Shown one piece after another: positions 1,130 to 60,000 of a stretch of DNA of 64,000 nucleotides. The position numbers and the translations under genes were made by a program. The notes under the pieces were generated by a model. The model did no database searches. It was not told the origin of the DNA and was given only the letters and a program-made list of their open reading frames with translations. This stretch comes from Mermis nigrescens. Taxonomy: Eukaryota > Nematoda > Enoplea > Mermithida > Mermithidae. Positions within the stretch are counted from its first letter, which is position 1; every line of letters begins with the position of its first letter. The stretch covers positions 124,001-188,000 of the forward strand of contig JAVLUZ010000702.1 in the NCBI GenBank assembly GCA_036768485.1. The letters are read 5' to 3'.

Positions 1130-2240
1130 ATCGTAGAATTTGCAATAAGGAATTCTACACCTTTTTACAGTTTTTGTTCTTCAAAAATCTTTGTACATGT
1201 ACAAAGACGGTCCTGAAACGTCTTTGTACATCAGCAAAAATCTTCGCCGAATACAAAAAGACCGTGCTTCTAAATGTGATAATTCGGCCTGAATTTATTT
1301 GATAATATTAGTTCGGCGCGAAGTGCCGAAATTTCTATGAGCTTTTGATGGAATTCACACATTAAACTCGACTGAGAAAGCTAAAACAACTTGTAATACA
1401 AAATCAGAAACATTACAAAAATTGTAATATGCGAATTAAATCTTGTAATAAGCAACACTGCGCTTAGAATGGAAAAATGGAAAAATGTCAAATATTCAGA
1501 AACCAAAAAATTGGCCAAATACACTACTAAAGGTCGAAAAACTATGTTCTACCACACTGAAATCGTTACTGTACCATATTAAAGTATAAAAAAATTTGTA
1601 TGTACAAAACAGTGTTTTTTTGTATTCGCCAATGATTTTTCCCGATGTACAAAGACTTTTCAGGAATTGGTAAGATAAAAACTGTAAAAAGGTGTAAAAT
1701 TCCAAAAATTTTTCGGTGCTTCTGCTGATATGAAAAATTGTCTGTCCTATATATCTTTAAAATGGCAAACTTTGTATTTAGAATGGAAAAATGTCAAATT
1801 TGTAGGCGCTTCGCGCCGTTTTGAGACAATTTTAGTAATTTTTGGCGTTAGAAACCCAGAAATTAGCTAAAATACACAATCAAAAGTCAAAAGACCCTGT
1901 TTTACCACACTAGAATCGCTACTCTACCATATTATTGTAACCAAAAATTTGTGTGAACAAAATGTACAAAGACTTTCGGGGACCATCTTTGTATATGCGC
2001 AAACGGACCGTGTACAAAAAAAACACTGGTACAAAATGTATATACAAAGACTGTTGGGTACCATCTTTGTTCATGCAAATACAAAGGTACATTGTACAAA
2101 AAAACACTGTCATATACTGATAGTATGCGAAAATGTGTACGTTTAAAAATATATTTATATAATATAGCTACAAAAATTTGTTAGCTCATACAAAGACCTT
2201 TTCAGAGATCTTTGTACAAGCACGAGAAGCTCGTACAACA
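1130..2240. mobile_element. Cluster of family B (hAT-type MITE) fragments
   Basis: Contains several CTTTGTAC/GTACAAAG motifs, the CGGCGC(GAA)GCGCCG-type hairpin near 1315 and 1806, and a recognisable B unit from 1610 (CAGTGTTTTTTTGTA) to 2109 (TACAAAAAAACACTG). The right end is tandemly duplicated: one copy ends near 2029 (ACAAAAAAAACACTG), a second at 2109. Confidence 0.65.
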
Positions 2241-2811
2241 AAATAGAGTCGGCTAATAATAGTCCACCACTTAATTTTCTGGTCCTCCAATTTGGGATTT
2301 CACCCCTCCCTCGACTCTGGACCTTATGAAACTACTTGAGACATATTTAGTTTATCAGATCGGACTCAATTCTGCAGCGTAGTTTACCTTCGCCTATAAT
2401 TAACCTCCGTCCTAATAACTACTACACAAGAAACGCGTTTTAAAGCCCGCGGTTCCCATTCAATTAAATGTAAAAGTGTTTTTTGTAAGAATTGTTTGTT
2501 GAAAACGTACAATTTCCAACTAGAAATAGAACGTATTTGTCAACTCTAAATCTTTTAGCCATAGCTATGAATGAATGAGTTAAAAGTAGCATTCAGTTTA
2601 AATAAGTTAAGTAGAGGAATCGAAAACATGCAGATTTTCCTGAACATTTATTCAGTAAAAGCTCGTTTATACACAGTAGCAAAGTTATAACAAGGACTAA
2701 GTAAGTATACATATGGTCTAATCAGTACAGTTCTCAAAATTAACACTTGCTCATTGTTAAATAATTGCCAGTATCACAGCCTGTACAAAATACGAATTAC
2801 ACTAAATTTTT
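2241..2811. other. AT-rich non-coding stretch
   Basis: 2275-2340 resembles the end of a family E element (ATTTGGGATTTCACCCC). The remainder has no recognised repeat and no exon-like segment. Confidence 0.35.
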
Positions 2812-2902: not shown

Positions 2903-4040
2903 CGTCTAAGCTTTGTGCAGGCGCGCTCGCTCTCCTGTCGATAGATGCTTGTTCTTTACTCTTAGCTGCTGAACTTTGTTGTTTGCATTTTGGTATTTTG
3001 TTTTTGCGACTTTTTCGTAGTGAGTACTTCTTCCTTGTAACCAAGATATTATTTTGTTGATAGCGGTATGGTCGGACGGAATAACTGAGTAGATAAGTGC
3101 TGCATATGGGTTTGGGTTTTGTCAGAAATTGATAACACTGGGTTAAGAAAATTTGTAGCTTTAATAAAACGTGCAGGAAAGGTGAGGAGAAGGCTCGGAA
3201 AACAAGTCTGATTGAAACCCGTCTTTCTTATTCCGAAATAGCTGAAGATTTACTTGTTTGTTAACCAAAACCTTCCAAAATTTCGTACCTATTTTCTGCG
3301 CAGATTTACCAATCGCTTGCCTAGATACTTTGCAGAGCTAAGATTTGTGCAGCGCATGTAAAATTTAAATTTTCGTTCTTTCGCAATATTACGGATACAT
3401 TGTCTAACTCTTTGTCAAAATTAGAGTTAATTAAATGCTGCTAAAATGCTACAATTTTTTGCGCTTTTTAGTATATTGAAGAAAGCCTTGCAACTATGAA
3501 ATTCATCTCATTGATATTCGGAAATGCATTGCCGTATAAGTTTGATCTTTGCAATTTTGAATATGTCGCTCATTTAGGCTATATTTCTGTGTAGTTAAAC
3601 GTAATCCTACACAACGATTGAATTTAAGAGAGAGGCTCAACGACTTGCAGTTAAATACGTCGTGAAGTTCAGTACAATCTTTTCACCTCATTCTTTCTTA
3701 TGCGTGCGCCGCACCAAAATGAATTTTAAATGAGTCGCGCACCAGCTATTATACGATAGTTCGTCGCTCTTGCATTATACTGTACTGTTGCATGTAAAAA
3801 AGATAAGTCCCCGATTCTATAAGTGCCTAATCAAAACTGATTTAGCCCCAAGCGTGCGGTTGAAACAGTCCATATTCAGTATTTTTATAACATAAAGGAG
3901 CATATTCATATCTTATGTCTTCTTTTCTTCTCAGATTTAATGCAGAAAATTAGATTTCTGCAAGAAGCAAGAATGAAAAATTTTTAAGCCATGATGACTA
4001 GTTTTGCTGATGAGCTTTTTTAAACTATTTTTAGCATACA
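2903..4040. other. Non-coding stretch with degenerate repeat of family K
   Basis: About 3840-3990 (AGCGTGCGGTTGAAAC, then TGCAGAAAATTAGATTT, AAGAAGCAAGAATG) matches segments near 21230-21350 and 21960-22085, so it is a dispersed repeat. The rest has no recognised element or gene. Confidence 0.4.
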
Positions 4041-4448
4041 TGTAACGGCTCGAAATTCGGGGAGGAGGTCCCGGCCATACCATACATGGTAATTCAGGGC
4101 GGACGAAATTTTAAAGTGCTTTTTCGGGCCCAAAAAATAGTAGATACGCGTAAAAAACATAGTTTTTCAGCGTTTTTGACGATGCTTTATCTTTCTAGAG
4201 CATACAAACATAAAAACATTTTTAAAAAATCAAAGAAGTCGAAGAAATTGAACAAATATAGTCAAAACATGAGTACAATGGCGCGAAGTGCCAAAAATTT
4301 GACACTTTTGAGCAAATAAATAGCTACAAACCTTTAAAAAAATTTCTTTTCTACTTTGGAAACTTTTGGAAAATCGCCAATTCTGGGGCGGTTAAAAAAT
4401 TGTTGCAGGGGTGAAAATTTTTGTTGGGGTGAAACTTCCTTCCAAGAT
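4041..4448. mobile_element. Family F end joined to family G copy
   Basis: Starts CATGTAACGGCTCGAAAT (F), then GGCCCAAAAAATAG, AGCGTTTTTGACGATGC and GGCGCGAAGTGCC as in family G copies near 24150, 43250 and 36850. No coding content. Confidence 0.45.
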
Positions 4449-4877
4449 CATGTGGTCCTGGCCGTTTTCAAGGGGGGGGGGTAAATGTCCTCTAATTTTT
4501 GGCCAAAAACGCCCAAAAATGGCCAACAAATATGATTTTTTTTCTAAAAATGGGGGGAGTAGTGATCGACCGGAGCGGCCGAAATGGCCGGAGCCGGAGA
4601 TCCAGCCGGAGCCGGATTGGAACATGTTGCTCCGGCTGGAGCCGGAGCCGGAGAAATATTATTTTACACGTGTGGATAGATAGGACATATTTGTGACCGA
4701 GATCTAGACCATAGTGCATATGCATCTCAACTGCATACCAGCTAGTAAGTAGTTATGTAAAATAGAGTACATTCAACAAAATTTCATTCAAAATTACCCG
4801 GCAATCTTGTCATCATTTTGCAGCTAAGTGTCTATAATATCTTCACTGTTCGCGGTATCTATAAAATCATCAACGTA

Positions 4878-5820
4878 CAGTGGCGGGTCTAGGATTTTCC
4901 TAAGAGGGGGCGGTATCCCAACTTCCAAAAAGAGTCAAAAATAGGGCCAAAAATTTGCCCTTAACGCGCGGAATAGCGTTTTTTTCGGTGTCTTACATTG
5001 TATACTTTTACATGAAATCAGTTTTGACGCAATATTTTCTCTGAAAATTTTAATATTTCAGACAATTTTGTGCGAAAAAATCATTAAATTTCTTTGACTT
5101 TTACAAAAATCTGGCGTGAAGCGCCGGAAAATTTGTGAAATTAAGGCGGATAGACGTGTAGAAGCATGATTTACTGCTTGATTTCCTGCATTTATAGCAT
5201 TTAATGCGAAACATCGAAATTTTTAATTTAAAATAGGAGGAAACTATGCAAAAATAGCTGTTTCTGCTGTTCAAATTGTTTTGAAACCTACATGAACAGA
5301 AAATGGCTTCCAAATAGTGTTTGTTTGTGCAAAGATGGTCCCTAAAAGTTTTTTTACATTTTTTACACACAAATTTTTGGGTACTTAGCGACTTTAGTGT
5401 GGTAAAAACAGTTGTCCGACCTTTGATAGTGTATTTTAGCTAATTCCTGTCTTTATGAGTGCAAAAATAATTAAGAATCATTTTAAAAGGGCGCGAAGCG
5501 CCGAAAAATTTGACATTTTTCCTTTCGGAATGCGATTTCTGCTATTATAAAGATATACAGGACACACAATTACCCATTTCGGCGCTTTGCGCCGAAATTT
5601 TTTGCGAATTTCAGACCTTTTTTGCACGTTGTCTTTCCAAAAATCTTTGTACGTGTACAAAGACTGTTCCGAAGTCTTTGTACATCGGGAAAAATCTTTG
5701 CTGAATACAAAAAAAATTGTGCTTCCAGGTCGCCAAGAAAGTAAATAAATGTCATTAATAGGTACCATCCGTCGCGTAGCGTCTGAAAAATTTGCTGGCC
5801 AATGGGGTGATCCGCCCCTG
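4878..5820 (-). mobile_element. Family C copy (C1) inside the TAGTGATCGA element
   Basis: Ends CAGTGGCGGGTCTAGGATTT and GATCCGCCCCTG, inverted relative to C2 at 33877. It carries a family B insertion at 5315-5721. A clean TSD is not recognisable. Confidence 0.75.
5315..5721 (-). mobile_element. Family B copy inside C1
   Basis: Bounded by CTTCCAAA and CTTCCAGG (degenerate 8-bp TSD). It contains GTACAAAGAC motifs and GGCGCGAAGCGCC near 5492. The site corresponds exactly to the B site in C2 and C3 (CCTGGAAG on the other strand). Confidence 0.75.
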
Positions 5821-6704: not shown

Positions 6705-9700
6705 GTAATTTAATCAACCAACTTGCGTCGTAATATATATACGTGTATATACTGGGGTCATGTGTCGTTTGCATTTAGAAAATTATGTGCGGCATACGAG
6801 TAACAGGAGGAGATGGGGGATCTCTCCATCCAAAGTTGATCGTCTCCCCATTCCCTAAAGCCAGAAAATTTTTGACTCCCGATTTTTGGAAAAAGTTGAT
6901 TTTTTTGACCATTGTTAGCTATTTTTTGGTCAGTTTTGGCCAAAAATTGAACGATATCCACACCCGCCCCCTAAAAACAATACCAAGTTTCGCATCATAT
7001 CTAAAAAACCAGACTAGTTATGTGAGCTAGGCACTTAAAAAAGTTTTTTGACGGTTAGACCGAAAGGTCCACGTCAGAATTGCCTATCTTTGAAACATAA
7101 TAAAAATCTGTTTGACAGATGTTGCACATTAGTAAAATTAGGTACATTTTAGAAAAAAATTCCACAACGCAGGTGAACAGTCTCACGAGGAAAGTCGTTG
7201 CTATTTGTGCGTATAGTACAGATGCTATTACTATGTAAGCATGTTAATTAAATTGAAATCATGGCCATTCTAGAGTCCAATGGAGCTTGTCACGAAATAC
7301 TGAATTAAGACGGAAATAAAATTAATGAACATTTTTGCGGCGTTTTCACTCCATCGCTGCAGCATAATGTGTCTGTATTACAACGCAGCTCATGCGGATC
7401 TTGTTTGTCGACTTTTTAAATGTATTGTATATCATTCCAAAGAGAACAGATTGAACGGGTGGGTGATATGGGCAAGAAAACAAATTTGCAAACAGACTGT
7501 TAGTCTTCCGGAAAATAAAAAACATCATTTGTACGGAATTAGATATTGCAAAGTCGAGTGCTAGCCTTAAAAAACGGGGGATTTATGAGTTAAAACAACC
7601 CACCGTTTTTCTCAGTATGCAAGAGGTGATGGCCAATTATATGTATCATGCTGTGAAAGAACTATGCCATGTATATGACAACTGAGGCCTGATCTCTTAT
7701 CTATCGGATCATTCGGGAACTTGAGGTATGAATTTGCCAAAGAGTTACGAAAAATTACTTCTGAAAATGAGCAGATGACGGCTAAGATTGTGATTCCGTT
7801 TACAAATACTTATTTTTCGAGCAATAGATTGTTCAATTCGTTCATCCGGACACTTTTAGCCCATAATTTGGTATATACATATTTGGTGTTAAAGGTCCTT
7901 ACGTTGCCCTTAGTGTTATATTCATGAAAAATTAAATACAACGAATCATAGTTTCGAAAGGTCGAAAGTCCAGGGGAGGTGAAATTCCAAAATTTAGGTC
8001 CACTAAATTTAGAGTCTAGCCTTTTTGCAGGTCAATTATGAAAAATGGCTAAAACGTCCTATATATGTAGCATGTTTGAATGTAAAAAACTGCATTTCTT
8101 ACTACTTTTTGTACCATTCTGATTAGTTTTGTTGCTTTTGTAAGTAAAAAATATAAGAATTCATCAAAAATTTAGACTTTAGATCATTTTAAGTTCATTC
8201 TAGGTATTTTATGCGTAAGCAAAACAGAAATGTATTAGTCGGCGCGAAGCGCTGATAAAATTTTAGTATCTTCGCTGCTTTTATACCCAAAACTCATGCA
8301 GAAAATGTTTGATAGTTCAAAATCGTCCGACAGTGATTCAAGTCTCGGACCCTGAGGTGGGGTTAATACCCCCTCTCACCCCCCTATGAGAATGTATGCA
8401 ACAAATGAAGTATTAAACTTTGACGCTGAATGGGTTAAAAATTACTCATTCACCCTCCAGGAAACTCGCTTTATCCCCTCCCCAGAGCTTCAGATCGTGC
8501 GCATGCATGGACCAGTCTTATGTAACGTAAGCTGCTGAAGTTTTCCTGTAAAGATGGTCTCAACCAATTTCAATATGACTAGATGTTACATTCATTTTAC
8601 CAGTGTCGCCGAGTAGAAATAAACAAGGTGATTTTGTTTTCAAATAACAGAAACAGTATTATGTTCTTGAAAATGATTCTATTTTCTGCATAAACGGCGT
8701 CAAAAAATAGAAGAAAGATAGATGCAAAATATGATTGGTTGTTAACGGTTGATTATATGAAGTGTTTAAAATGCACGCTGGGGGCTTAATAGATTGTTTC
8801 GGCGCGAATTTCGGCTATTGAAAAAATCCTTTTTCAATTTGATTCGGGGAGGAGGTTATTTCGTCCTTTTTTAAATTTTGTTTCATTTTATTTCCACGTT
8901 ATTTTGCAGTGGAAGGTGGCCATCGGGCGATTCTTTTCAGTCGATTGACCGGAGTGGGCAAAGAGGTGTACCACGAAGGCCTTCATTTCCGCATTCCCTG
9001 GTTTCACTATCCAATCATCTATGACGTCAGATCAAGGCCCCATAAAATAACTAGTCCGACTGGTAGCAAAGGTGCGATAATGCTCGTCCTTTCGTTTGCA
9101 TTTTCTATTGCATTAACATAATGCAAATGCCATTTATTACGCGCAAACACAAGTGACAGTGTATCATCAAGCATACGCTCAATAGAGGAACGAGGGATAC
9201 TCCACTCAAAGTCGATCGCCCCCCCAGAATTCGATTTTGAAAATTTTCTTGTTTTTTCTCGCAATTTGTTATGCCAATGGATAGTGTTCGATGAGAAACG
9301 TTAAAAAATGTTGTTTTTTCGCCATACCACCATTTTTAAGGCTATTTTTTGACCTTTGAAAAATATTGCACCCCACCCAGTTAGAACTTTGGTGATGCCC
9401 ACCTAATGCTTCCCATCCCCCTTAGTCAAAAAATTTTGATCTGACCTCTCCGTCTATTTTTGGCGAAAACTTGCGTTTTCTGGCCATTTTTAAGTCATTT
9501 TTTTGCGATTTTGGTTGAAGATTGGAGTTTATTTTCCCTTCCCATCCTAAAATGACCGGGAGTGGGCGCTCCCCTCCCAAATTTTGAGCCGTTACATGTT
9601 TGTCACCAAGCATTTGTTTAAACATGTAAATAGAAAAGGTATGTAAAGAAGGAACAGATAAATGTGATAAGTGAATAAATATATAATATATGTGAATAAA

Positions 9701-12700
9701 TAGATTAATAATGTAAATTGAAGTTTAACAAACTGTTCAATTTTATTTTTATTCGTCGTGTCGAGGCGGTATAAAATTATTCTTCATTTTCATTCTCAAT
9801 AATCGATGTTAACATGTTAATCGTAAAAAATGCTTATCAATGACCCATAAAATGAATGCTAGAGTGGAACAGTTTAAGTCTCGAATCCAAGCGTTTGGTG
9901 CTCGTTTGACGATGTAATATTTTATATGTCTTAATTCAATTAAATGATGATCATCATATCTTAAAAGTAAGATTGCAACCATATGTGTGTATATCGCTTA
10001 TTTTTGAATGATTAAATTCTACGATATCTGGTCTCTCTTGAAGCATTTGTACGCGCCGAAAAAATTTTTGTCCAGTAGGCGTAGTATATATGTACGTGTG
10101 TGTGTATTATTCTGTTATATTTTTTCATTGCTTCGTATTGGCTTAACCGGAAATCACACATTTTTTAACCGAAAAAAGGAATTTAAGAAGTCTAAAATTT
10201 TAAACTTTCACTTTAGGTGGGCGGCGCCAAAGTTCTAGGAGGGGGAGTGCAAGATTTTTTCTAAAGTCAAAAAATGGCCTTAAAAATGGTGGTATGGTGT
10301 AAAAACACCATTTTTCAACGTTTCTCAACGTGCACTATCCATTGACATGAAAAAATTGCGAAAAAAAACAAAAAATTTCCAAAAATTGAGTTCCTGGGGG
10401 GTATTTTGGTTTCAGGGGGTGCATACCCCCAAATCCCCACGCCCAGGTATGCTCCTAAGCCTATTATGCGTTATTGTATAAGTCAACACTCGTGAAAACG
10501 ATGTTTCAACTAACCGATATATTTGTCATTAAATTTTGTCCCACTATTTAGCTCGCTTGATAATTCTTTCAGATTTACAAATGGTTAATATTACGCTGCG
10601 AGTACTCTCGCGCCCCGATTCGATCAATTTGGCGCAGATGTATCGATCGATAGGTTTAGATTGGGACGAAAGAGTTCTTCCGTCAATTTGTAATGAAGTA
10701 AATCGATAGCGCGTACCGCATCTGGACGTGGGGGTTGGGGGTATGCACCCCCGAGAAACCAAATACCCCCAGAGTTCAATTTTTAAAATTTTTTCCCGTT
10801 TTTTTCTCAATTTTTTGACGCCAATGGATAGTGCTCGATGAGAAACGTTGAAAAATGGTGTTTTTTCGCCATACCATCATTTAAAAGGCCTTTTTTTACC
10901 TTTGGAAATAACTTGCACCCCCTGCCTCAGAATTTTGGTGCCGCCCACGGCGCGTCTGTGCGTGTTAAATTGAGTCGAAATTTGTGGGAGAAAGCGGACC
11001 AATATTTTTTGATTCTTAGTTCGAAAAATTTTCGATTTTTCGTTTATCCCAGTCAAAATAATGAAGATTACGACGAAAAAATAATATTAGGAAATAAAGG
11101 ATAGAAAAATGAAATATAAGAATGAATAAGTATTTCATCTTAAAAATCTGAAAATACCTTTATTTTGATATCAGCAAGCTCTTTAGTTGATTTCTGAGCC
11201 AGTTTACTCCAGGCACGTATCTGGCCCCCTTATTTGGGGGGACCAACACCAATTTGGGGGGGGTCTAAGCCAGAAGTAGCACAAAATAACGTTTGAAAAA
11301 ACCTATTTTTCCATTTTTTCTGAATTTTGGGGGTCCGGACCCTCCCATTCCCCCACAGCTACGTGCCTGGTTTACTCAGAAGTCTGTTTTTGCGAGTTCC
11401 CAGTATAATAAAGAATGAAAAAGTTAAAAATAATAAGAGAAAGTCGAAATTAAAGTTAGGCAGTTAAGAATTTGCTCGGCCTGTGCTTTGATGACATAAG
11501 CTACCTACCAATTCTTAATAAAAAATTAAGTATTGTCAAGTAATCAAATTTCGTGGCGAGAATTGCATCAAAGGTTGAAAAATGCTTAATATTAATTTTT
11601 TCTCAAATTCCGTTTTGCAACAAGGTACGTCTCTGTCGCTCTACGTATTCCCGGCCAAAAACGACGGTAAAGTCTAAAAATGAATTGGGCTTTTCCTTGG
11701 AATTTTCAACAATTATCGCCTCTCCACGAATCCCAAGCATCGAGTCCTAAGCATACATGGGCAGCAAGAAAATTGTGGGGTACTGGTTGGGTGAAATTGC
11801 TAAAAATTGTCAAAAAGTGTTACTAACAATAGAAATTCTGGGGTTTACAGTAATCTGATTTCTGGTTGGGTTTAATCTCCCCAACCCCCACACGCCAACA
11901 AGTGTTTTTTTTGTACTCGGCAAAGATTTTTCCCGATGCACAAAGACTTTTCGGAACCGTCTTAGTACATGTACAAAGATTTTTGGGAAGACAAAAATTG
12001 CAAAAAAGGTCTGAAATTCGCACAAACTTTTTGGCGCTTCGCGCCGAAATGAGTAATTGTGTGTATTGTATGTATCTTTATGATGGCAGAAATTGCATTT
12101 CAAAAGGAAAAATGTCAAATTTTTCGGCGTCGCGCAGTTTAAGACGATTCTTATTGATCTTTGCCCTTAGAGACCCATAAATTAGCTAAAATACACTATC
12201 AAAAGTCGAACAACTCTGTTTTTACCACACTAAAATCGCTACTGTACTATATTATAGTACACAAAAATTTGCATGTACAAAATGTACAAAGATTTTGTGA
12301 AGACAAAAATTGTAAAAAGTGTAAAATTCCAAAAAATTTGGCACTTCGCGCGAAATGAGTAATTGTTTGTCCTATACATCTTTAAAATGGCAGAATTTGC
12401 ATTTAGAATGGAAAAATGTCAAATTTTTCCGCCGTTTTGAGACAATTTTCAGTAATTTTCGGCGTCAGAAACGCATAAATCAGCTAAAATACACTACCAA
12501 AGATCGAAAACACTGTTTTACCACACTAAAATCGCTACTGTACTATATTATAGTACACAAAAATTTGCATGTACAAAATGTACAAAGACTTTTGGGGACC
12601 ATCTTTGTACATGTACAAACGGACCTTGTACAAAAAAACACTGTCGCCAACGTGTAGTCGCCAGCATAGGTGGGCGGCACCAAAATTCTGGAGAGGGTTG

Positions 12701-15700
12701 CAAGATATTTCAAAGGTCAAAAATGACCTTAAAATGGTATGGCGAAAAAATACCATTTTTCGACGTTTCTCATCAAGTACTATCCATTGGCATCAAAAAA
12801 TTGCGAAAAAAACTTTAGAAGAAATTCAAAAATTGAATTCTGGGGGTATTTCGGTTTCTGGGGGGTGCATACCCCCTCCCCGAACCCCCTACGCCCAGGT
12901 ATGAGTCGCCAGCCATGTCATAACATAAGACGTCAGCGTACAGTTTCTCAGGAAATTTGAACGATTAACATTTAAAAGGTCTCTTAAGGATTGAGTTGCC
13001 TACGCTGACGTTGTCATATGTTTTAGCAAAGCAATGCAAAACATATACGGCGACATTATGTGTGTCAGATACTGAATCCTTAAGAAAACGTTAAGGACTG
13101 TTAATTGTAAAAAATTATGGCGAGAACAGTATGTTTTACCACAATACGAAACATATGACGACGTCCTGTCTTAAACATGAGCAGCTGAATCCTCAGCAAA
13201 AGTTGCAGACTTTAAATTGTTCGAATTTCGTGGCGACCATACATGATCATGGGGGTTGGGGGTATCAACCCCAGAATTCGCGATTTTTCAAAAGTTCCTA
13301 AGAATGTCCTGAAAATTCGTAGAAATGGTGCTTTTTCAAGCGTTTTTAACCATCTGTTTGCTCAAAAGTGTCAGATTTCCGGCGCTTCGCGCCATATGCT
13401 CGTGTTTCGACTATATTTTGTTCAATTTGTTTGACTTTTTTTAATTTTTTCGAAATTTTCCAATGTTTTTATGCTCTAGAAAGACAGAACATCGTCAGAA
13501 ACGTAAAAAACGGTGTTTTTGACGCGCGCCTACCATTTCTGGGCCCAAAAGAGGCACTTTAAAACCCCCCCCCCGCAGAAGTCCGTCTGGTGCCGACCAC
13601 TCCTGGGCGTGGGGGGTTCGGGGTATGCACACCCCCGAGAAACCAGAATACCCCCCAGAATTCAATTTTTGAAATTTTTTTCGCAATTTTTTGATGCCAA
13701 TGGATAGTGCTCGATGAGAAACGTTGAAAAATGGTGTTTTTCCGCCATACCACCATTTGTAAGGCCATTTTTGACCTTTGAAAAATCTTGCACCCCAGAA
13801 CTTCGGTGCCGCCGACCTATGGTGACGACTGGCCAGAACTATGAATTCGCGGTCAATAAAACGCTCCGGCTACAGTAATTAAATTAATTAAAAATTTTGG
13901 CGCGATTCGCAGGTATTAAAAAGCGTCGTAGCCAAATTCAACGCGTCCCAATTGATCACGCAACGTCAGCAAGTTTCGCTGCTGATTCGCAAGCAATTGA
14001 TCGACCGGGCGAAAGACTTCAACATTATTTTGGACGACGTTTCCATAACCGAATTGTCGTTCGGTCGCGAATACAGCGCGGCGGTCGAATCGAAGCAAAT
14101 CGCGGCGCAGGAGGCGCAGCGCGCCGCGTTCTACGTCGAAAGGGCCATTCAGGAACGGCAACAAAAAATCGTTCAGGCCGAGGGAGAAGCGCAGGCGGCT
14201 AAATTGGTGGGTGGGCTTATTTTAGCTTTTTTGGTGATTATTGGGGTCGACGATAGGCTCTCAGCTGAACCCTGTGATAATAGGTGGGTGGCACCAAAAT
14301 TCTGGGGGGGGCAATATTTTTCAAAGGTCAAAAAATAGCCTTAAAAATGGTGGTATGGCGAAAAAACACCGTTTTCCAACGTTTCTTATCGAGCACTACC
14401 CATTGGCATGAAAAAATTGCGAAAAAACAAAAAAATTTCAAATCTTGAATTCTGGGGGTTGTTTTGGTTCTCGGAAGGGGGATGCATACCATACGTTGGC
14501 AGCACCAAAATTTGGGGGAAAGGGGCGGCGCAAAATTTTTCAAAAGTCAAAAATGGCCTTAAAAATGGTGGTATGGCGAACAAAAACACCATTTTTCAAC
14601 GTTTCTCATCGAGCGCTATCCATTGGCATCAAAAAATTGCGAAAAGAACAAAAGAAATTTCAAAAATTGAATTCTGGGGGGTATTTTGGTTTCTGGTGGG
14701 TATTTTGGTTCCTCATTTAACCCCCCTCCCCACGCCTAGGTGTGCCTGTGATGCCCTATTATTAATTCACCCTATTGGAGACGTGTCCAAAAATATTTTC
14801 TTGCTGGGCTTGGCATAGGCGCTTAAGTCAGTATCGCGTCCGATCCGCCGGGTCAAGCACCGTCGGGCGCGGTTAGTCATTGGAACGAATTCGCGACTGG
14901 ATTTTATTTTAATAAATCCTGATTGATCGTCCGATTATAGATCGTACATGTAAAAAGCTCAAAATTTTGGGATGGCGTTGTAGGGCTATTTGAGGAGTGG
15001 GTAAATGATCCATTTATGTATTTCTGACCAAAAATAACGAGAACAAGGATATGCATATAAAAATGGCCTAAATACGCAAGTTTCTTCCACAAAAGTCGAA
15101 AGAGGATAGAAAATCTCAGCCTCTGAAGCATTCGGGTAACGGCTCGAAATTCAGGGTGGGAGTTCCTCGGCTATTTTCGGGAGTGGGGGTGAATGACTTA
15201 TAATTTTGGGCCGAAAATGGCCATAAAAAACATCGAAAATGGCCGAAAATGCATGTTTTTCAAAAATTGTGGTCTAAAATTAATTAACTCCGGGGGTTGG
15301 ACGGGGGGGCCGACCAGCTTTGGGTAAAGGGATCCCCCATCCCCCTGCTATATGCCTGCTCTGGGGGATGGTCGACTTTGGATGGGGCATTATCCATCCC
15401 GTATTACTTGTGCGCTACCAGTGGGAACATCGGCACGACGGGCTCGTATAATCGTATTTGAAATTTACTTTTCTCACCCTATGATAAACCTTTATTGAAA
15501 AAAGTGTCAATCAGTATTATCTCAGGATTAATGAACCCGTAGGGTAATTGTTCACTATTGATTTTTGTTTTGTTTTATAATTGTACATTTTTTCTCGATT
15601 TTTCGTAGCCTTTTTCTTTACTGTCAGTAGATAGAGTTTGATGAAAAAGTCGAGAAATGACGTTTTTCTGTTCTCATTTTGGCCACATTTTGACCTTTCT

Positions 15701-16882: not shown

Positions 16883-16914
<32 letters not shown>

Positions 16915-17362: not shown

Positions 17363-17449
17363 TCATCAGATAGATCCATCATCGCCATCGAGCGCGTCAT
17401 TTTTTTTCAAAAGTGTAAACCGAGTGCATTTTTCTATTTGGGTAACAAC

Positions 17450-17689: not shown

Positions 17690-17697
17690 GTAACAAG

Positions 17698-20604: not shown

Positions 20605-20612
20605 GACTACAC

Positions 20613-23083: not shown

Positions 23084-23091
23084 ATATCATG

Positions 23092-48000: not shown

Positions 48001-51000
48001 TATTAGAAGAATGCGTACATATTAAGAAAAGAAACTTAAATTGCCCTCCAAGGTTAGTGTTCCGGTAGGAGTTCGTCAACTTAATATCGTTTTGGCCTTC
48101 CCGCTACGCTTTGGTCTATCATTCAAACGTATGCAACAAATTAGGCTTAACAAATGCCAGCAAAGTTAAATCAACCATGAACGCATAATTTCAAAATCAT
48201 ACATGTAACAGGCAGTGTTTTTTTTGTACAAGGTCCGTTTGTACATGTACAAAGATGGTCCCCAAAAGTCTTTGTACATTTTGCACATGCAAATTTTTGT
48301 GTACTATAATATAGTACAGTAGCGATTTTAGTGTGGTAAAACAGGGTTTTCGATCTTAGGTAGTGTATTTTAGCTAATTTCTGGGTTTATGACGCCAAAA
48401 ATTACTAAAAATTATCTGCTAACGGCGCGAAGCGCCGAAAAATATTGACATTTTTCCATTCTAAATGCAAATTCTGCCATTTTAAAGATATATAGGACAA
48501 ATAATTTATCAGTTCGGCGCGAAGCGCCAAAAATTTTGGAATTTTACACCTTTTTACAGTTTTTGTCTTCCTAAAAATCTTTGTACATTTTGTACACACA
48601 CAATTTTTGGGTACTATAATATGGTACAGCAGCGATTTTAGTATCGTAAAAACAGAGTTCTTCGACTTTTCGTAGTGTGTTTTAGCTAATTTCTGGGTCT
48701 CTAAGGGCAAAAATCACTAGGAATCGTCTTAAAACGGCGCGAAGCGCCGAAAATTTGACATTTTTACTTTTGAAATGCAATTTCTGCCATTATAAAGATA
48801 TATAGAACACACAATTACTCATTTCGGCGCGAAGCGCGAAAATTTTCGAATTATAGACCTTTTTTGCAATTTTTGTCTTCCCAAAAATCTTTGTACATGT
48901 ACAAAGACGGTCCCGAAAAGTCTTTGTACATCGGGAAAAATCTTTGCCGAATACAAAAAAAAACCGTGGTAACAGGGCAGGAGAATGCGGGTGTTCCAAG
49001 GTCGGTAATTTTTGACCCCTACTTTTTGCGAAAACTTGCGATTTTTTGGACATTTTTAGCTTCTTTTTTGTCGTTTTCGACCAAAACTTGATGGTCATTT
49101 GAAGCCTCCCTCTCGAATTGGCCGTCTACCTCCAACCAAAATTTTAGATGCTACGCTTGTAGTGAAAATTAATTCAGTCTATCATTCACGAATCGCAACA
49201 TTATTCCCCAAGTCTACATATAAAATTAGATCCGCAATATGCAATGCATCACCTTACGATTTGCACGATTCATCTATGTTTCAATACTTTGTGCTCTTCA
49301 TAGTATCACATTTAGGGTGATACTGTACCAAATGTTGTATTTTAATAAATTCGTGAAAGCCGTGTCGTCGTAAAAGAATTTGTGATATCTCCCAAATCGC
49401 TAGATTCGCCTGGCTAAAGCTAATTAATATCGTCATTCTGCATTTAATAATTGAACAGGTGGTTTTATTTCATAATTTTATGTTTATGCTGTTTTCTTAT
49501 TTTTAGAATCCAACGCCAAGTCCGATCGGCTTACCGCCCTCGGACGGTATGGCCCCTGGCCCAGCTGGTATGGGCCCACCACCCCATGGTTTCTTTCCGC
49601 CCGGCGTCCCTGGACCCCATATGAGGCCCTCGCCGCCTCAACAATCTGTGTCGCAACCGTCCCCTCATGCCATGATGAACCAATCTGTGAGTTTTCCCAG
49701 ATATTCTTAATTTAATTCTTTTATTCATTTTTCGTTCCTTTTTGGTAATGTAATTAATGGCGATGTTATGATTGATTATATGTGCATATTGTTCGTTTGC
49801 CGCGATTGATTTGTTCCGCTCGATTTGCTTTTAACTGTTTGTTATCGTCATAAGTATGAAGTCGAGAGGATATTATCAGTTTAGTATCAAAATTTATGAG
49901 GCGATGCACTGCATTGATTTTATTTTTCTAAACTATTTTTTTCAAGTTTTATTATTTTTTTACTATTTTTTCAAGTTTTTAAATGAATTGCCCATTTTCT
50001 TAGTAGACGAAATTCGGCGACTTTTGCTTGTATTGTATCCGTTTTTTAGGGCTTCATGCAGGCCAGGTATCCTGGCCCTCGTGGAGCCATGCGTATGCCA
50101 CAAGAACAACCCCCTTACGGCGCGAGCCCCGGCCCGCCGATGTTTCCCGACCCGATGAGAATAGGAGGTCCTCAGTTGATAACCCAGCAAAGGCTCGGGC
50201 CGGTAGGCCACGGCCGAATGCCGCCCATGAGCCAGAATGTGAGTTCAGTTATGGTTCGTATGGACAGAAAATCATCACCCAAAGTCATACGTAGGAAAGA
50301 GGTGGGGTATCCTTCACTCATCGGTGGGCGACACCAAAAGTCTCGTGGGGGTGCAAGGTTTTTCAAAGGTCAAAAAATGACCGTCAAAAATGGTGGTATA
50401 GCGAAAAAACACCATTTTTCAACGTTTCTCATCGAGCACTATCCATTGGCATCAGGAAATTTGCAACAAAAAATTTCAAAAATTGAATTCTGGGCAGGTA
50501 TTTTGATTTTGGGGGGGGGTATTTGATTTTTGGGGATATTTTGATTTTCTGGGGGTACCCCCAAACCCCCCACGCGTAGGTATGGTCGTCTCCCCCATTC
50601 CTCCCCCCCCAAAGTCTAAAAATTTTGCACCTCACTTTTTGTATAAACTTTCGTTTTTGGTCACTTTTAGGTGCTTTTTTGGCCAATTTTAGCCATAAAT
50701 TTAAGGTCATTTACCCCCTCGACTCGAACTGGCCGACTACCTAACCCTTATTTTGAGCTGTTACACAACTTGCCGCAATCGAACCTTCACCCATTCCTCA
50801 AACCTTTTTATCTCCCTCTTTTTACGATTTTTCGACAGCGCTTTTTATGCTTTTTCACATTTTTTGCGCAAAGAAGGTAGAGGGTCAATTGCCGTTTTGA
50901 ACAGCCTGCCATTTCGTCAAAAAAATTTCTGGCCAATAATTTCGTGATTGCAGTCTTTGGTGGATTTTCTATTCAAAATTTATCATTCTCCTAAAAGATA

Positions 51001-54000
51001 TTTGAATATGTAGTTATGTACTTTTATAGGTGCACAAAGTCAGGGTGGGAAGGGGGGGTTGAAATCTAAAAAATCTAGAACAGTAAAGTTTACGTTCACG
51101 TTTTTTGCTGCTTAAACGTCAAAATAGTCAAAATAGCCTTTAAAACGTTTTTCGTGATAATATCGCATTTTTAATGCATTTGACTGTATTTTATTACTTT
51201 TAAAATTAAAAAAATGCAAAAATTGATTAATTTTGGGTGTTTTTTAAGTAGAAGGTACGTAAAAATACTAGTTTGGCGCGAAATTTTGACCTCAAAACTG
51301 ATGCAAAAAACGTTCCATCAGCTTAAAATCGCCGGACAATACCAGTCCGACTGACTCTTCTGGGGGTAATACCCCCCTCACCGCCCTGTGTGCATATATA
51401 GTTACTTTACTTTCATTCTTCGGTCGGAATGTTCAAAAAGAATGGGTGTAAAATCGTTATGAAAAATGGCGGCTCTAGCAAAATGAGCCTATCAGTTTTT
51501 CAGCAAAAAAATTGGAACTTATCAGATAAAATTTTCAAGCATCATAAAGTATCTATTAACCCGAAATAGTAAAGTTTATCATTTTCTCTTATCGTGTGTT
51601 CGGTTGTTTTAATTAATTAAGTTGGCATTCTAATAATGGCTTGAAATTTCGGGAGGGGGTCAACGGCTATTTTCAGAAGGGAAGGGGGAGAATGAGCTCC
51701 ATTTTTTTGGCCAAAAATGGCAAAAAAGCGACTAAATCGGCCAAAAACGAAATTTTTCGCCAAAAGTCGGGGGCTGGTCAAAAATTTACTGAATTGGGTG
51801 GATGGTGGATTCCCCATCTCCCCTGTTAACTTTATGATTCTAGTTTATTTAGCATCATATGAAGCATATTAATTGATAAATTTATTAGTTTCATTCAGTG
51901 ACTGATTTACGGGGGGCGGCCCCCCATTGGCCAAAAATTGATGGTGAGAATAAAGTATGGATATGTCATTTGCATTGATTTTCAGCCGTCAGCGACCATA
52001 GTTTCTCGATTTTTTCCGGCGCTTCGCGCTGGATAATACCTATTAATGACATTTATTTACTTTCTTGGCGACCTGGAAGCAGTGTATTATTTTTACTCGG
52101 CAAAGATTTTTGGGAACACAAAAATTGCAAAAAACGTCTGAAATTCGCAAAAATTTTCGGCGCTTCGCGCCGAAATCAGTAACTGCATGTTCTATATATC
52201 ATTATAATGGCAGAAATCGCATTTCAAAAGGAAGAGTGTGAAATTTTTCGGCGCTTCGCGCGTACAAAAACTGTAAAAAGGTGTGAAATTCCCGAAAGTT
52301 TTCGGCGTTTCGCGCCGAAATGAGTAATTGTTTGTCGTATATTTCTTTAAAATTGCATAATTTGCACATAGAATGGAAAAATGTCTAATTTTTCGGCGTT
52401 TCGCGCCGTTTTGAGGCAATTTTTAGTAATTTTTGGCGTCAGAAACAGAAATTAGTTAAAATACACTACCAACGATAGAAAACCCTGTTTTACCACACCA
52501 AAATTGCTACTGCACTATATTATAGTAAAAAAATTGTATGTACAAAATGTACAGATACTTTTGGGGACCATCTTTGTACATGTACAAACGGACGTTGTAC
52601 AAAAAGCACTGTCTGGCCTGGAAGCCATTTTTGCTCATGAAATAGGTTTCAAAACAATATCAACAGCAGAAACATCTATTCCAACATAGTTTTCTTTTAT
52701 TCTCATTCAAAAATTTTTGAGACGTTTCGCGTCAAATACCACAAATACAGGAAATCAAGCAGCGAATCAAGTTTCTAAATGTCCTTCCGCCTAAATTTGA
52801 CAAATTTTCCGGCGCTTTGTGCCAGATTTTTCTTTAAAGCCAAGAAAGTTTAGTGATTTTTTCGCATGAAATTGTCGACAATTTTAAAAATTTTTTGAAA
52901 AAAACATTGGGTCAAAAGGGATTTTAAATAAAACTAGACAATGCAAAACGCCGAAACAGGCTATTTCGCGCGTGAAAGGGCAAATTTTTGGACCCATTTT
53001 TGACTGTTTTTTGAAAAGTTGGGTACCGCCCTCCATTCATGTAACGGCTCGAAATTGGGGGTGGTAAATGATCTCCAATTTTTTGGCCAAAAACGTCTAA
53101 AAACGGCTAAAAAATTCGATTTTTTTGCCAAAATTCGGGGGGTCAGAAATTTTCTGGATTTTGGAGGGATGATGGGGGGACGTCCGACTTTGGGTGGTGG
53201 ATCCCTAGCGTCGACAGTTGTGGGAGTCGTTGCTTTTTGGCGAGTGTTAGGGTTTTATAGTACAAAAAAAGGTTTGCTCTCGTGAGCCTATACTGGACTA
53301 GTCAATAGGATGTTATAATTAGTATAGTATAAGGCTCTAGTAAGAGTTAAGCTATTAGTTCGCATGAAATGAATCTGATTTTTAGAGTTTCACCATGAGG
53401 CCGCTTGTTAATACGTCATTGGGTCCAGGGATGGCATCTGGTGCGCACATGCCTCGATGGCCAGCGTCGGTGAGTTTAAATAATTATTGATTTAATTGAT
53501 TTTTTGTTGATTGATTCAGAATTTAAATTTTTCCAATTTACTTATGCGCATTCTCGTACTTAACAAGCATAGGTGCACAAGGTCAGGGTAGGCAGGGGGG
53601 TGAAATGCCAAAAATCTAAAACAGTAAATTTAACGTTCACGATTTTTTTGCTGTTTAAATGATCAAAATAGCGTATAAAACGTTTTTTCGTGTTAATAAC
53701 ACATTTTAAAAGCATTTTTAGTCCATTTTGACTTCATTATATCACTTTTAACACTAAAAAATGCAAAAATTTATCAATTTTGGGCGCATTTTGAGTAAAA
53801 AGTAATTAAAAGTACTAATCTGGCGCGAAGCGCCGGAAAAATTTCGACATTTTTACTGATTTTGATGTCAAAAATGATGCAGAACAAGACCTGTTTGCTC
53901 AAAATCGCCGGACAGTACCGGTCTAGCTGACCCCTCAGGGGGTAATACCCCCCCTCACACCCCTATGTGCATGTGTGTTAACAAGACAATCTGATGTAGG

Positions 54001-57000
54001 AATTAAATTGAATTAAAAAATTAATTAAATGTGAAAATTTTAAATTAAAAAAATCGATTCTGCTTGAAAGAGCAAAAAGCGCTTAAATTAAGAAATTAAT
54101 TAAGTGCGAAAATATCAAATTGTTCAGCAGCGGCAAAAAGCGCCTAATTGATTTAAAATGATCATATTGCGGACTATCTGTCTTATCATGATTACGGTAT
54201 TCTTGTACTTACATTTGCATAATTGCTTACTACGTTTTTATTATCGATTGATCGGCTACTTGTATTCATTTACTTGATTTATTATTTATTTACTATGATT
54301 TACTATATTTACCATTTATTTGTTTATGTATTTATATATTTATTTCTTTACTAGATTTCATGTTTAGCATTCTGCGTCGAATTCGCTCCATTTAATTTTT
54401 ATTAAAATGGTTTCAGATGCAGTACAACGATCCAGGGCCCTCCCAATTTCCCGTAAGTTTTTTATTAGTAGATGCGACGTATACATTTTTACGTGTTCAT
54501 TCCACTTTTAACATATTTCGAAATTTTACTTATATGTATTTATCTGAATTTTTTAATTTGTTTAAATTTATTTTATTTCCTCTATTCTTTTAAATTCATT
54601 TTATTTCCTCTATTTTTGAAATTTATTTCATTCTGAATTGGCTTATTAGTTTTATCTATTTTTTAAGGGATCGTCAATGTCAGTTAACAATGGACCACCT
54701 CCTGGACCTGGAACGCCGATAATGCGAAGTCCGCATATGCCCGGTGAACATTTATCGATTTTTAGTATAGTTTCTTCCTTTTTTGCTGCGAAAATGTTCT
54801 AAAATTAAGGGTTTCGTTAAAAATCTGTACTTTTCGTAGTGTTGTTCAATAAGGCAAACTGCAAGGAAACTTTGTTCTCCGTTTAGGAGCAGCTGGATAA
54901 ATTTGTGATAGGAGATTAATATTTGAAACCGTTAGAATCGTGTTTTGACCAGACACGCACAGCATGGGAATTCATGGAGAGTGGGCTAAAGTTTAGAGTG
55001 CCTTTTTTGAGCTCTAAAACACGGCGGATATGCGTCATAAAACATGATTTTTGGCGATTTGGCCATGCCCAATCTTGCTAGAGCGTAAAAACAATAAAAA
55101 AGTTCTAAAAAATATGAGAAAAATTTGAGAAGATTGAACGAAATATAGGGGCGCCGAAAATTCGATACTTTAGCGAACAAATAGCTAAAAACGTGTAAAA
55201 TGCCATCTTTCCCTACGAATTTTATGGACAAACCTCAATTCTGGGTGGGGTGAAAATTTTTTGGGGAGGGGTAAATTTTTTTGTTGAAATAAGACTCGCT
55301 CAACCCCCAGACCATACATGGTTCTGACCAGGCCAATATCCAGATCGGTCATGGGGGCGAGCATAAATTGGCCTATATCCCGGAAAAATTCGTCGGGATA
55401 GCTCGCGAAACTCGCATTTTTCGACGTTTTTCGACTTTCGCTTATCATTAAGACCGTAGAATTCAAATTTTTTTGAAAAAAGTAATTTTTTTACTATTAA
55501 AAAGAGTCGTTTTTCAATCACGTTTGAGCCAGAATTATGGACAATATTTTCACATCGGGCGCGGAGCGCGGAAAATTTGAAGATTTCACAAGACCGCGGA
55601 ACCCGTGCATTATGGAGCTTTCGACATTTCCCGGCCCGGCCAAGGAGGGGCGGCCGCCCCGCCCTCCCCTAAATACGACAGGGCCCTGGTTTTGACTAAT
55701 AATTTACACTCATGTTTTATTGTGTCTGTATGTTTTGTACTTTAAATTGTTTTGTTAGACGCATTTAAAAGATATAATTTAAGGTGCGCAACGTCAGGGT
55801 CGGCGGTGGTGTGGGGGGGGGGTGGAGTTGAACCCCTAAAAAACCGAAACAGTCAATTTAACATTCACGATTTTTTTGCCGTTTTAACGATAAAAATGAT
55901 CAAAATAACCTATAAAACGTTTTTTTCGGGGTAATATCGCAAATGTAAAAGCATTTTTAGTCTATTTGGACTGCATTATATCACTTTTAACACTAAAAAA
56001 TGCAAAAATTTATCAATTTCGGGCGCTTTTCGAGGAAAAAGTACTTAAAAGTACTAATCCAGCGCGAAGCGCCGGAAAAATGTTGACGTTTTTACTGCTT
56101 TTGACCTCAAAAATTAGGCAAAAAACGTTTCATCAGCTCAAAATCGCCGGACAGTACCGGTCCGGCTGAACCTTCAAGGGGTAGGGGGGTAATAACCCCT
56201 CATCTCCTAAGTGTATTTATGATATAATTATGTACTAATTACCTATTGCTGATTATGTAAAATCTTTTTTCATCTATGATCCTCTTTTTTCACTTTTTTC
56301 AAAAATTGATTACAATTTCGCATTGCATATTTTGTGTGAAATGGCCGCGTTCGTTTAGATGGTCCTTCGGATAGATACGCAATGATGCAAACTGGCGGAC
56401 CACCTATCGGAGGGGTAAGGCTTCGATTCAGTTGGTCAGTTTAATGGCTTAATGTTTGCCAGACGGGCACGGCTTGGGAATTCTGGTGTGGGGGGTGAAA
56501 CCGATAAAATTTCTAGTAAAAAGTGTTTTAGGGGGTCGAAAACGATGGGTATATTTATAAAAAAACAAAAAATTCACAACGGATTTCGAATATGTTGAGT
56601 AAATTGAACAAAATATAGTCAAAAGATGAATAGTTCTAGCTTTTGAGCCAAAAGATCGCTAAAAAGGCTTAAAACAGCACCTTTGATTCCGATTTTTTGG
56701 AAATCAAAAATTCTGGGAGCGGAAAAATTTCTGGGATTGAAAACCCTATAAATCTCAAGGTTATACTCGTAGTAATGCTTGTTTTATATTTCGGCCTTTC
56801 TCAGCTGTCATTCGACTCTCCAGTTTTTCATTGTAAATGAAGAAATCCCTTTACTAAATAAAAGCTGAGAGTCTAGTGATTCAATTAATCGACAAATGTT
56901 AAAATATATGTTAGCTAAATAGGAAAATATATTCAATTAATTAACGGGAAACTCAATTTATCTAGTATGAAGTTTTGAAGCTTGTTTGAAGGTAAGGGCT

Positions 57001-60000
57001 TTTCATTTCACTCGAATAAGTTCCTCGTTCTAGAGTCGAATCTTTTCGGGCAAAGCTTCTAACGCGGGGAATAGATAAAAAACCAGAAATAAATCAGAAA
57101 AAGCAAATTATAAAACCTTACAACCCTCAAAAAATCTAATAACAAATGAATTGATAAAACGAATATATACATAAAAAGCGTAAATCTAAGAAAATTGTAA
57201 TGTGACCACACCTGGGTGTGGAGGGATTTGGGGGTATGCACCCCTCCCCCCGATAAACTAAAATACCCCTTCCCTTCTCAGAGAAACCAAAATTCCCCTC
57301 AAAATTCAATTTTTGAAAATTTTTTTTTGTTTTTTTCGCAATTTTTTAATGCCAATGGATAGTGCTTGATGAGATTCATTGAAAAATTGTGTTTTTTTCG
57401 CCGTACTACCATTTTTAAGGCCATTTTTTTGACCATTGAAAAATCTTGCACTCCCAGAATTTTGGTGCTGCCCACGTATGAATGTGACTCATTGTGCATA
57501 AGTAATATGTATAGGTAGTAGTGATGCACCGGGTACCGGTGGCGGTACCAGGACCGGTACCGGTGCCGGTACCACTCTGGTACCGGCCGGTACTACTTGT
57601 ATTAATTTAATTTTTTGAGCTTAAAGTGAAGGAGGAACTGTTTCAGAATAAAGCCCACTCTGTAACAAATAACAGTGCAATAATAAAGAAGCACCTCTCT
57701 GCAAATTTTATTCGATCATTCATTTCACTTATTTCAACAAGCCTTAATCAACAGTACGTAAATTTTTTGGACAAAAACACGAGCATTTCCAAATTTTTCG
57801 GCAACAAACGCGTTTGCCTGTCAGAGCATATATTGCCACTTTTGTACTGAACAGTCTTTCATTCGGTACACTAGTGGTACCCAGGGGCGGATTTAAAGGG
57901 GGCGGCCGCTCCCCTATTGGCCAAAATATTTGACGCGATAAAGAATGGATATGCAATTTGCAATGATTTTTGGCCGTCAGTGACCATAATTTCTTAAATT
58001 TTTCCAGCGCTACGCGCCGGATGATACATATTAATGACATTTATTTACTTTCTTGGCGACCTGGAAGCCATTTTCTGTTCATGTATGTTTCATCACAATT
58101 TAACAACAGAAACAGCTATTTTTGCATACTTTTCTTCTATTTTCAATTAAAAATTTCGATGTTTCGCATCAAATTCTATAAATACAGGAAATCAAGCAGT
58201 GAATCATGCTTCTAGACGTCTATCCACCTTAATTTCACAAATTTTCCGACGCTTCGCGCCACTGTTTCTTTTGTACTCGACAAAGATTTTTTCCGATGTA
58301 CAAAGACTTTTCGGGACCGTCTTTGTACATGTACAAAGATTTTTGGGAAGACAAAAATTGCAAAAAAGGTCTGAAATTCGCAAAAATTTTCGGCGCATCG
58401 CGCCTAAATGAGTAGTGTGTACTATATATCTTTATAATAGCAGAAATTGCATTTCAAAGGGAAAAATGTCAATTTTTTTCGGCGCTTTGCGCCGTTTCAA
58501 GACGATTCATATTGATTTTTGCCCTTAAAGACCCAGAAATTAGCTAAAATAGACTACTAAAAGTCGAACAACTCTGTTTTTACCACACTAAAATCGCTAC
58601 TGTACCATATTATAGTACCCAAAAATTTGTGTGTAAACAATGTACAAAGACTTTTAAGCACCATCTTTGTACATGTACAAACGGACCTTGTATAGAAAAC
58701 ACTGCTTCGTGCTAGATTTTTGTTAAAATCAAAGAAATTTAATGATTTTTTTCGCACAAAATTGTCAAAAATTTTGAAATTTCAAGGAAAAATATTGCGT
58801 CAAAAGTGATTTTATGCAAAAGTAAACCATGTAAAAAACCGAAAAAAGCTTTTCGCGCGTTAAGGGCAATATTTTGAACCTATTTTTGACTGCTTTTGAA
58901 AAAGTTGGGATACTGCCCCTCCCTAGTAAAATCCTAGATCCGCCACTGGTGGTACCGGCGCCGGTACCAGGGTACCGGTACCGGCTGGAAATGAGGTACC
59001 TGTGCATCACTAATAGATAGCATCATTTATGATTACAGTGGGAAAATATTTATTGCGATGTATTTAAATTGTTTGCGTCAAGTTTCCCATGACCTCCGAA
59101 CAGTCGGGAGGCGTGGGCGGCCTCGTGGGCGATATTCTCATGAACGGCGACGGCATGGACATAAAGAGTTCGCCGGCGTCGGCGCACGGATTGAACGGCA
59201 CGCCCGGTCCGGCGGGCGCCGCCGGACCGGGCCCCGGACCGGGCGGCGCGCAGGGTTCCCAAAATGGCCCTCAGGGGCCGAGCGGCTCCGGCGGGGGGCC
59301 GGTTGGCGGGCCGAATTCGGCCCCGCCCCCAGTCTCACAGGACTCCTGTTCACTGGACTACGGACCGGCTGGCGGTATGCACCCGTTTCAGACCGGGACT
59401 AGCGCAGTAAGTGCGATGTGTAACCAGACATTTAATGACTCCCAGTTTTGGGCGTGTATCTTAGGCCATTGCGGGGAGGGGGTAAATAAACCCCCAATTC
59501 TTGGCCAAAAGGCAACGGAAACCTAAAAATTGATAAAAACGCAAGTTCTTGCCAAAAATGGGGGTACAAAATTTTCTGACTGGGGGGGTTGGATGGAAGA
59601 CCGACTTTTTTGTACGGGAAAAGACCTACATGGTACATTTCTGTGTGTAACCATACGCACATAAGGTGGGAATTCTGGGGGGCGAAACAAAAAATTTTCT
59701 AAATTGCCTTTTTTGGGCTTAAAAACTCTGAATTTCTCGTCAAAAATATAATTTTTCGGCTTTCTGACGATGCTCTTTCTTCCTAGACGACACAAATATC
59801 CAAAAATTTTCAATATTCAATCAATTTCAACAAAATGTAGTCGAAAATGGCCGCGACACTTCTTAATAGATCGCTGAAGACGTTTAAACCAGGACTTTTC
59901 TACAATTTTTTTGAAAATCAGTTCTGGAGGGCTGGTTGAACCCCAGCTTTTAGAAAAAATGCGAAAGACCGGTTCGGAATTGACTTTCAGTACTGTGTGC

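Follow-up and report, generated by a model that had tools for sequence, protein, structure and literature searches.

Repeat families of the nematode Mermis nigrescens that differ at their ends have in common a short palindromic module – GGCGC-GAA-GCGCC with an A/T tract on its 3' side – whose G and C stem positions have changed at about half the rate of flanking G and C. It was studied from a 64-kb stretch of the 524-Mb, 860-contig assembly (C664:124001-188000, referred to here as the window, with positions counted from its first base), and the host repeats whose ends can be defined are most aptly classed as non-autonomous hAT-type transposons, i.e. miniature inverted-repeat transposable elements (MITEs). 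An original prediction, made from the letters of the window, had taken the module for a hairpin kept for a function such as a replication or transposition structure. We favour a protein-binding site with two half-sites over a functional hairpin, and propose tentatively that the module may be a hAT subterminal repeat that is recognized as duplex DNA.

The window contains 33 sites on both strands within one mismatch of GGCGCGAAGCGCC, compared to a mean of 0.04 over 100 dinucleotide shuffles, and 16 strict GGCGCnnnGCGCC sites, compared to 0.01; one strict site, at 14113, lies inside a prohibitin-like exon and looks unrelated. Genome-wide, GGCGCGAAGCGCC occurs exactly 47,266 times (23,501 + 23,765) and the reversed control six times (2 + 4). 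With up to one mismatch the counts are 107,199 and 1,337, and for a perfect stem with any loop 68,677 and 60. The palindromic motif is real and far beyond chance, and in its description the original prediction was accurate: a hairpin-shaped motif is indeed shared across repeat families, and the ten sites it listed are correct to within nine bases (5490, 8241, 12033, 13381, 25070, 48424, 48736, 52159, 53822 and 56061), with 8241 and 56061 each carrying one mismatch. The loop variants that it reported are also present and, in the orientation of the element, read AAA at both 34705 and 58481, TAA at 21915, GAT at 58392 and TTT at 5581; the GAAAAATTT tail likewise follows the motif in an alignment of 17 family and site sequences. 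A 22-mer search returned no match in viral_contigs and two Saccharibacteria contigs in genome_contigs, collections that are viral and prokaryotic and uninformative about animal relatives; in the open-licence literature the core 11-mer occurs in three papers, which by their titles deal with other topics. A structured RNA was considered as a candidate, and no Rfam match reached the gathering score in the window.

The common unit is about 23 bp long, YC-GGCGC-GAA-GCGCC-GR-AAAATTT, which runs in order C or T, GGCGC, GAA, GCGCC, G and then A/G-AAA-A/T-TTT. In the 17 sequences, which were picked by motif, conservation was above all 400 random draws at positions -1 to +11, 13, 15 and 16, and remained raised until about +21. 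When flanks were compared with the motif masked, 40 exact sites (30 at the top of the genome listing and 10 from the window) fell into eight groups. Elements carry one to four modules, none of them in the 5' ends seen, and module orientation is consistent among copies of one family. The start of the last module lies 134-205 bp from the end faced by the A/T tail: 142-145 bp in seven copies of family P (208 bp in one rearranged copy), 137-138 bp in Q, 155-160 bp in G3, 158 bp in G5, 134 and 137 bp in G8-like elements, 181 and 183 bp in G9, 198 and 205 bp in G4, and 184 bp in one weaker call. Family P has up to four modules, approximately 91 bp apart within pairs.

Families were defined by self-alignment and reading of copies as P, Q (which includes groups G2 and G6), G3, G4, G5, G7, G8 and G9, plus single copies (Table 1). 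Family G7 and the single sites at 1315, 19912, 20046, 24871 and 45908 are without trustworthy end calls, and their membership is unproven. The host repeats are short and non-coding, the longest open reading frame in the whole window being 173 aa. Definable ends are bordered by 8-bp duplications, which within the window are perfect at elements of P, Q, G3 and G9, with termini that are mostly CA..TG; the terminal inverted repeats (TIRs) are of the CAG..CTG type in P (CAGTGTTT), Q (CAGTGGCGGATC), G9 (CAGGCCCGTA) and G8 (CAGGTCCATA). Members of G3, G4 and G5 start with CATA, and one G3 copy has no CA..TG, which is less typical of hAT. The hAT features applied here are those of PMC3517528 (in excerpt). 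An automatic element search over the window and sampled loci gave 28 calls, 14 with perfect duplications and 14 with one mismatch, the maximum allowed; about eight of the 28 look spurious. An element was called at 41 of 126 distinct sites, with a perfect duplication at 23, compared to 51 and 27 for 600 random anchors; many anchors are themselves located within the same MITEs. Helitrons carry a hairpin some 10 bp before their 3' terminus and have neither a TIR nor a target duplication. Helitron ends are ruled out here, because TIRs and 8-bp duplications are present and the module is at least 134 bp from the end.

Table 1. Module-bearing elements and individual modules in the window.
Feature	Position	Strand	Remarks
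Element P, 756 bp	48213..48968	+	TIR CAGTGTTTTTTTTG / CACGGTTTTTTTTT; flanked on each side by 8-bp duplication GTAACAGG; four modules
P module 1, exact	48424..48436	+	
P module 2, exact	48516..48528	+	92 bp after module 1
P module 3, exact	48736..48748	+	
P module 4, one mismatch	48826..48838	+	Start 143 bp from 3' end
P copy	11900..12643	-	Duplication ACGCCAAC/TCGCCAAC; module 12033, other modules damaged by deletion
P copy nested in Q	34056..34515	-	Duplication CCTGGAAG; modules 34186, 34287
P copy inside Q module	58260..58704	-	Duplication CTTCGCGC/CTTCGTGC; modules 58392, 58481
Q with nested P	57882..58948	-	TIR CAGTGGCGGATCTAGG / CAGGGGCGGATTTAAA; duplication GTGGTACC; modules 58248 (interrupted), 58006
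Q module, one mismatch	5113..5125	+	
Q module, loop AAA	34705..34717	-	
G3 element	53568..53977	+	Duplication TTAACAAG; one exact module 53822
G3 element	55779..56220	+	Duplication GATATAAT; module 56061; outermost bases TTAAGG .. TTTAT, not CA..TG
G5 element, related to G3 along its entire length	7947..8398	+	Duplication CAACGAAT/CAACAAAT; module 8241
G5 module, exact	25070..25082	-	
G9 element	30086..30698	+	TIR CAGGCCCGTATCCAAGA / TAGGCCCGTGTTCAG; duplication TGCACTTG; modules 30415, 30518
G4 module, exact	13381..13393	-	
G8 module, GCACC variant	28261..28273	+	
Module with loop TAA	21915..21927	-	Relative at 21120-21275 with hairpin deleted
P module, own-strand loop TTT	5581..5593	+	Compatible with loop inversion and one change

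Several elements are nested. At 58260-58704, P is inserted exactly within a Q module, with the duplication reading GCGCGAAG/GCACGAAG in the orientation of P, and a similar P-Q junction is found at two sampled loci (L022 and L033); either the composite is spreading or the module has been targeted repeatedly. Three further copies (4877-5793, 33890-34951 and 51896-53034) have P nested in Q at CTTCCAGG, one of them with CTTCCAAA on one side, a site that is empty in the Q copy at 57882-58948. The P-in-Q composite seems to have been amplified as a unit. The window also contains about 20 copies of a 240-bp MITE family, D1 (CATAGGTGGGCG .. CGCCCAGGTATG; for example 12665-12904 and 17449-17688), with duplications such as GTCGCCAG and GGTAACAA.

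One account of a motif common to several families is common descent, in which a single old MITE superfamily gave rise to all the families and the module survives as its best-preserved scrap, without present function. With modules masked, 10 of 55 family pairs score above all 200 random sequences of equal dinucleotide make-up; reversed-strand scores reach z 5.3, and only the seven pairs at z 6.3 or higher are trusted (G3-G5, G9-D1, G4-D1, G8-D1, G3-G9, G4-G8 and G9-S219), leaving Q-G3, G9-G8 and P-G9 doubtful. Descent is favoured by G3 and G5, which align over their full length (z 29), by a second block located 70-170 bp from the 5' end that joins G4, G8, G9 and the module-less D1 (z 6.5-9.5, safe pairs), and by the match of P to G9 through a two-module layout when modules are left unmasked (E 1.5e-8). 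It would also yield similar distances to the end. However, nothing firm is seen in the other 45 masked pairs, including P-Q (z -0.3), yet the block itself is nearly identical, and within families the stem G/C changes half as fast as that of the flanks. As far as these alignments indicate, the sharing is part descent and part a block that has outlasted its flanks. The families had been called otherwise unrelated; most pairs do lack detectable kinship, but the seven safe pairs are related, G3 and G5 throughout. The related suggestion of a function rather than descent alone is partly supported. We regard descent as the whole explanation as possible, if doubtful.

Substitution rates were compared in within-family alignments defined by homology, where 40 of 448 stem cells, 19 of 129 loop cells and 594 of 4883 flank cells have changed. 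Matched for base, the stem G/C positions changed in 37 of 439 cells (0.084) and the flank G/C positions in 275 of 1515 (0.182), and in 20,000 draws the flank G/C columns never came out as low as the stem, with or without P; the ratio of stem to flank stays at 0.40-0.52 on leaving out any single group. Overall, stem G/C is not mutating as fast as flank G/C. Decay of CpG was considered as a confounder and set aside: observed/expected CpG is 1.16, without depletion, and flank CpG changed at 0.217 compared to 0.089 for stem CpG.

The loop gives a more mixed picture. Within families it varies more than the stem, and its two A positions changed at 0.138 compared to 0.095 for flank A/T. Among the perfect-stem sites of the genome the loop is GAA in 47,266 and NAA in 57,266, which leaves 10,000 with a change confined to the first loop base and 11,411 with other loop changes. 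The 59,933 single-mismatch sites are made up of these 10,000, at most 11,411 at the other two loop bases, and 38,522-49,933 at the ten stem positions, i.e. a mean of 3,900-5,000 per stem position. With its 10,000 changes, the first loop base has about twice the freedom of an average stem position. Stem transitions counted singly gave 2,737 and 3,118 sites genome-wide. Likewise, in 42 single-mismatch sites, 11 of the 12 loop changes are at the first base. The proposal that the stem is kept over the loop thus holds within families, where stem G/C also changes at half the flank G/C rate, and genome-wide the loop excess rests on that first base.

Preservation of a stem could mean that the DNA hairpin itself is functional, extruded or folded as a single strand and kept for its pairing as a replication, excision or strand-transfer structure. 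The sequence d(GCGAAGC), described for synthetic DNA as a mini-hairpin of exceptional stability, is within every exact module, and seven 31-mers fold at about -8 to -12 kcal/mol. The greater variability of the loop within families and the covariation of the outermost pair, given below, also speak for a hairpin. Long gaps overlap the 13-bp hairpin in 9 of 14 cases compared to 3.0 expected (p 0.0005), a count that is somewhat inflated since three of the nine come from the poorly aligned G4 and the references were chosen for an intact module; the end gap of the G6 copy at 5720 (54..82) was omitted as divergence at the terminus; a single 10-base insertion was counted. The hairpin probably forms at times, because gaps overlap it in excess and the loop at 5581 looks inverted. 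The palindrome seems unstable, which fits cruciform formation or slippage and is no argument for benefit; deletion hot spots indicate instability instead.

Compensatory changes do not point to pairing as the conserved feature. At pair three, the one stem pair counted genome-wide for double changes, the restoring double change occurs 197 times (87 + 110) compared to 181 expected (2737 x 3118 / 47266; z 1.2). Of 34 double-mismatch sites in the sampled sequence, two have both changes in one pair and none is complementary. In an alignment of 44 sites, from which heavily deleted copies were excluded along with 12340, 45908, P at 1670-1799 and G4 at 42722, double changes number three in pair one, one in pair two and zero in the inner three. 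The covariation signal of this alignment is mostly in the outermost pair, -2/+14, which covaries between families (TA in 15, CG in 11 and unpaired in 17 of the 44); the sites are related sequences, and the shuffle figures are not probabilities. The variation is mostly post-insertion decay, for which compensation is expected under no model. The first loop base, required for a stable GNA loop, is the freest in the module. Retention of the stem as base pairs is the part of the original prediction that lacks support, and GAA is not retained as a special mini-hairpin loop; a role in transposition does fit hAT-like elements. We consider a functional hairpin very unlikely.

The reading as a protein site is favoured over the hairpin because the half-sites are conserved, the spacer base is freer, restoring changes are not in excess, an A/T tract adjoins the palindrome, and the unit is repeated across families. 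The module would be a quasi-palindromic duplex site, with half-sites GGCGC and GCGCC, a short spacer and the A/T tract on the 3' side, contacted through a zinc-finger DNA-binding domain by one hAT transposase or several related ones; a need for binding would keep it while the flanks diverge. We infer that a protein binds the module, that the binder is a transposase, and that the need for binding is the cause of retention.

Known hAT systems provide partial precedents, cited here from excerpts. In Hermes, a pair of BED domains recognizes a quasi-palindromic subterminal site, at the left end only and helped by an A/T-rich neighbour, and other hATs need approximately 100-200 bp of each end (PMC10368747); Kat1 uses repeated subterminal hexamers (PMC4763223). 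The module resembles the left-end STR1-STR2 of Hermes in being a quasi-palindrome with an A/T-rich neighbour and in its occurrence in a superfamily with 8-bp duplications, but its half-sites are GGCGC/GCGCC rather than AAGT/AAGC, and it is present in many MITE families rather than one transposon. The hAT-19-like proteins and their domesticated kin (CGGBP-like), transposases with zf-BED and Hermes domains, prefer CGG or CGC, and GCGC in some coelacanth relatives, with motif matches in subterminal regions (PMC8097297). In contrast, the binder of the module here is only putative, and a PF10683 profile search was silent, as was its control. Drosophila Mar MITEs (hAT, Buster) are likewise non-coding, about 600 bp long, and have a short TIR starting with CAG and an 8-bp duplication; their TIR, CAG(G/A)GGTAGGC, differs, and the excerpted description mentions no subterminal palindrome.

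A dimeric protein need not be a transposase, and the module could instead be a site for a host transcription factor or silencing protein, kept for aiding spread or repression. Conserved half-sites with a freer spacer base suit any dimeric protein, and the half-site TTCGCGCC resembles an E2F site. Domesticated hAT proteins can bind GCGC (PMC8097297, in excerpt). However, such a site would not need to lie at comparable distances from one end of the transposon in different families, and no open-licence paper was found joining transposon, E2F binding sites and MITE. We think this explanation highly unlikely.

The genome is rich in hAT transposases: a first look with PF05699 gave 3,147 candidates, 150 of them scored, and PF14291 gave 39 matches among 80 candidates. 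One PF14291 family (L066-L068) has an open 770-aa frame with DUF4371 and Dimer_Tnp_hAT domains, and about 950 bp after the frame the L066 copy has a terminus whose complement is CAGGCCCGTAGCCAGGATTTT, near the G9-type TIR CAGGCCCGTATCCAGGATTTT of the 36-kb copy. This DUF4371 hAT (L066-L068, L096 and L097) is a candidate source of the CAGGCCCGTA-type MITEs. A palindrome and A-run lie 162 bp from its 3' terminus, and are noted without claim. Five other hAT families (L034, L043, L093, L094 and L095) have an apparent 3' end CTA, CCCTA in four of them, and dense family-specific subterminal arrays of the GGCCGATATATCGGCC, ACCCGGGT, GGCCCCGG, GGGTCC and CGGTTCC types, two of them palindromic. Their apparent ends are of the TAGGG- or TAGTG-type. 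Several module-like sites at PF05699 or PF14291 loci are not assigned to a known MITE, such as L057 2547 and L060 350-593; the three at L060 (350, 472 and 593), with two mismatches each and tandem spacing of about 122 bp, are another array layout.

A number of these observations weigh against the proposal of a hAT subterminal binding site. The original prediction suggested searching autonomous elements for the motif, and among the loci read no element with both a coding transposase and the module was found: modules are present at 13 of 30 PF05699 and 4 of 30 PF14291 loci, and those traced are the MITEs known from the window. Six hAT families have no module at the 3' end, the end that was read, and the DUF4371 element, with its G9-like TIR, has none at up to three mismatches over the 4.67 kb that were read, a stretch stopping short of the 5' end. 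The silent PF10683 search belongs here too, with its equally silent control making it uninformative. The module-less D1 family moves regardless. Stem constraint is weak in G4 (0.20 vs 0.26) and absent in G6 (0.114 vs 0.095). Distances of 134-205 bp in elements of 375-760 bp are not strikingly terminal, and the Hermes site, in excerpt, is 11-27 bp from the tip. Because the G4 module is mid-element (198 of 399 bp and 205 of 407 bp), we have lowered our estimate of the subterminal-site reading and raised that of common descent.

Two other features of the window were noted. Band_7 exons at 8843-9118 and 13892-14335 belong to what we read as a prohibitin-like gene, and a short tandem array with unit GGTACCGGTGCC lies at 57532-57597, about 300 bp from a Q copy.

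A subterminal palindrome common to several MITE families with different ends would be a variant on known subterminal sites. A broader idea, which we think rather unlikely, is that one site, and not the TIR alone, lets one or a few transposases move at least seven MITE families whose termini are of five or more kinds. If true, families would retain the site while their ends evolve or are newly acquired, and approximately 68,700 perfect-stem sites would have been seeded in the 524-Mb genome. The way in which transposases are shared among MITEs with unlike ends is an open question of practical interest. Retention of one site by families with distinct TIRs permits a direct test of it, for which this genome supplies very large natural variant counts, and a palindrome in which stem is kept over loop can be distinguished from a hairpin by counting double changes.

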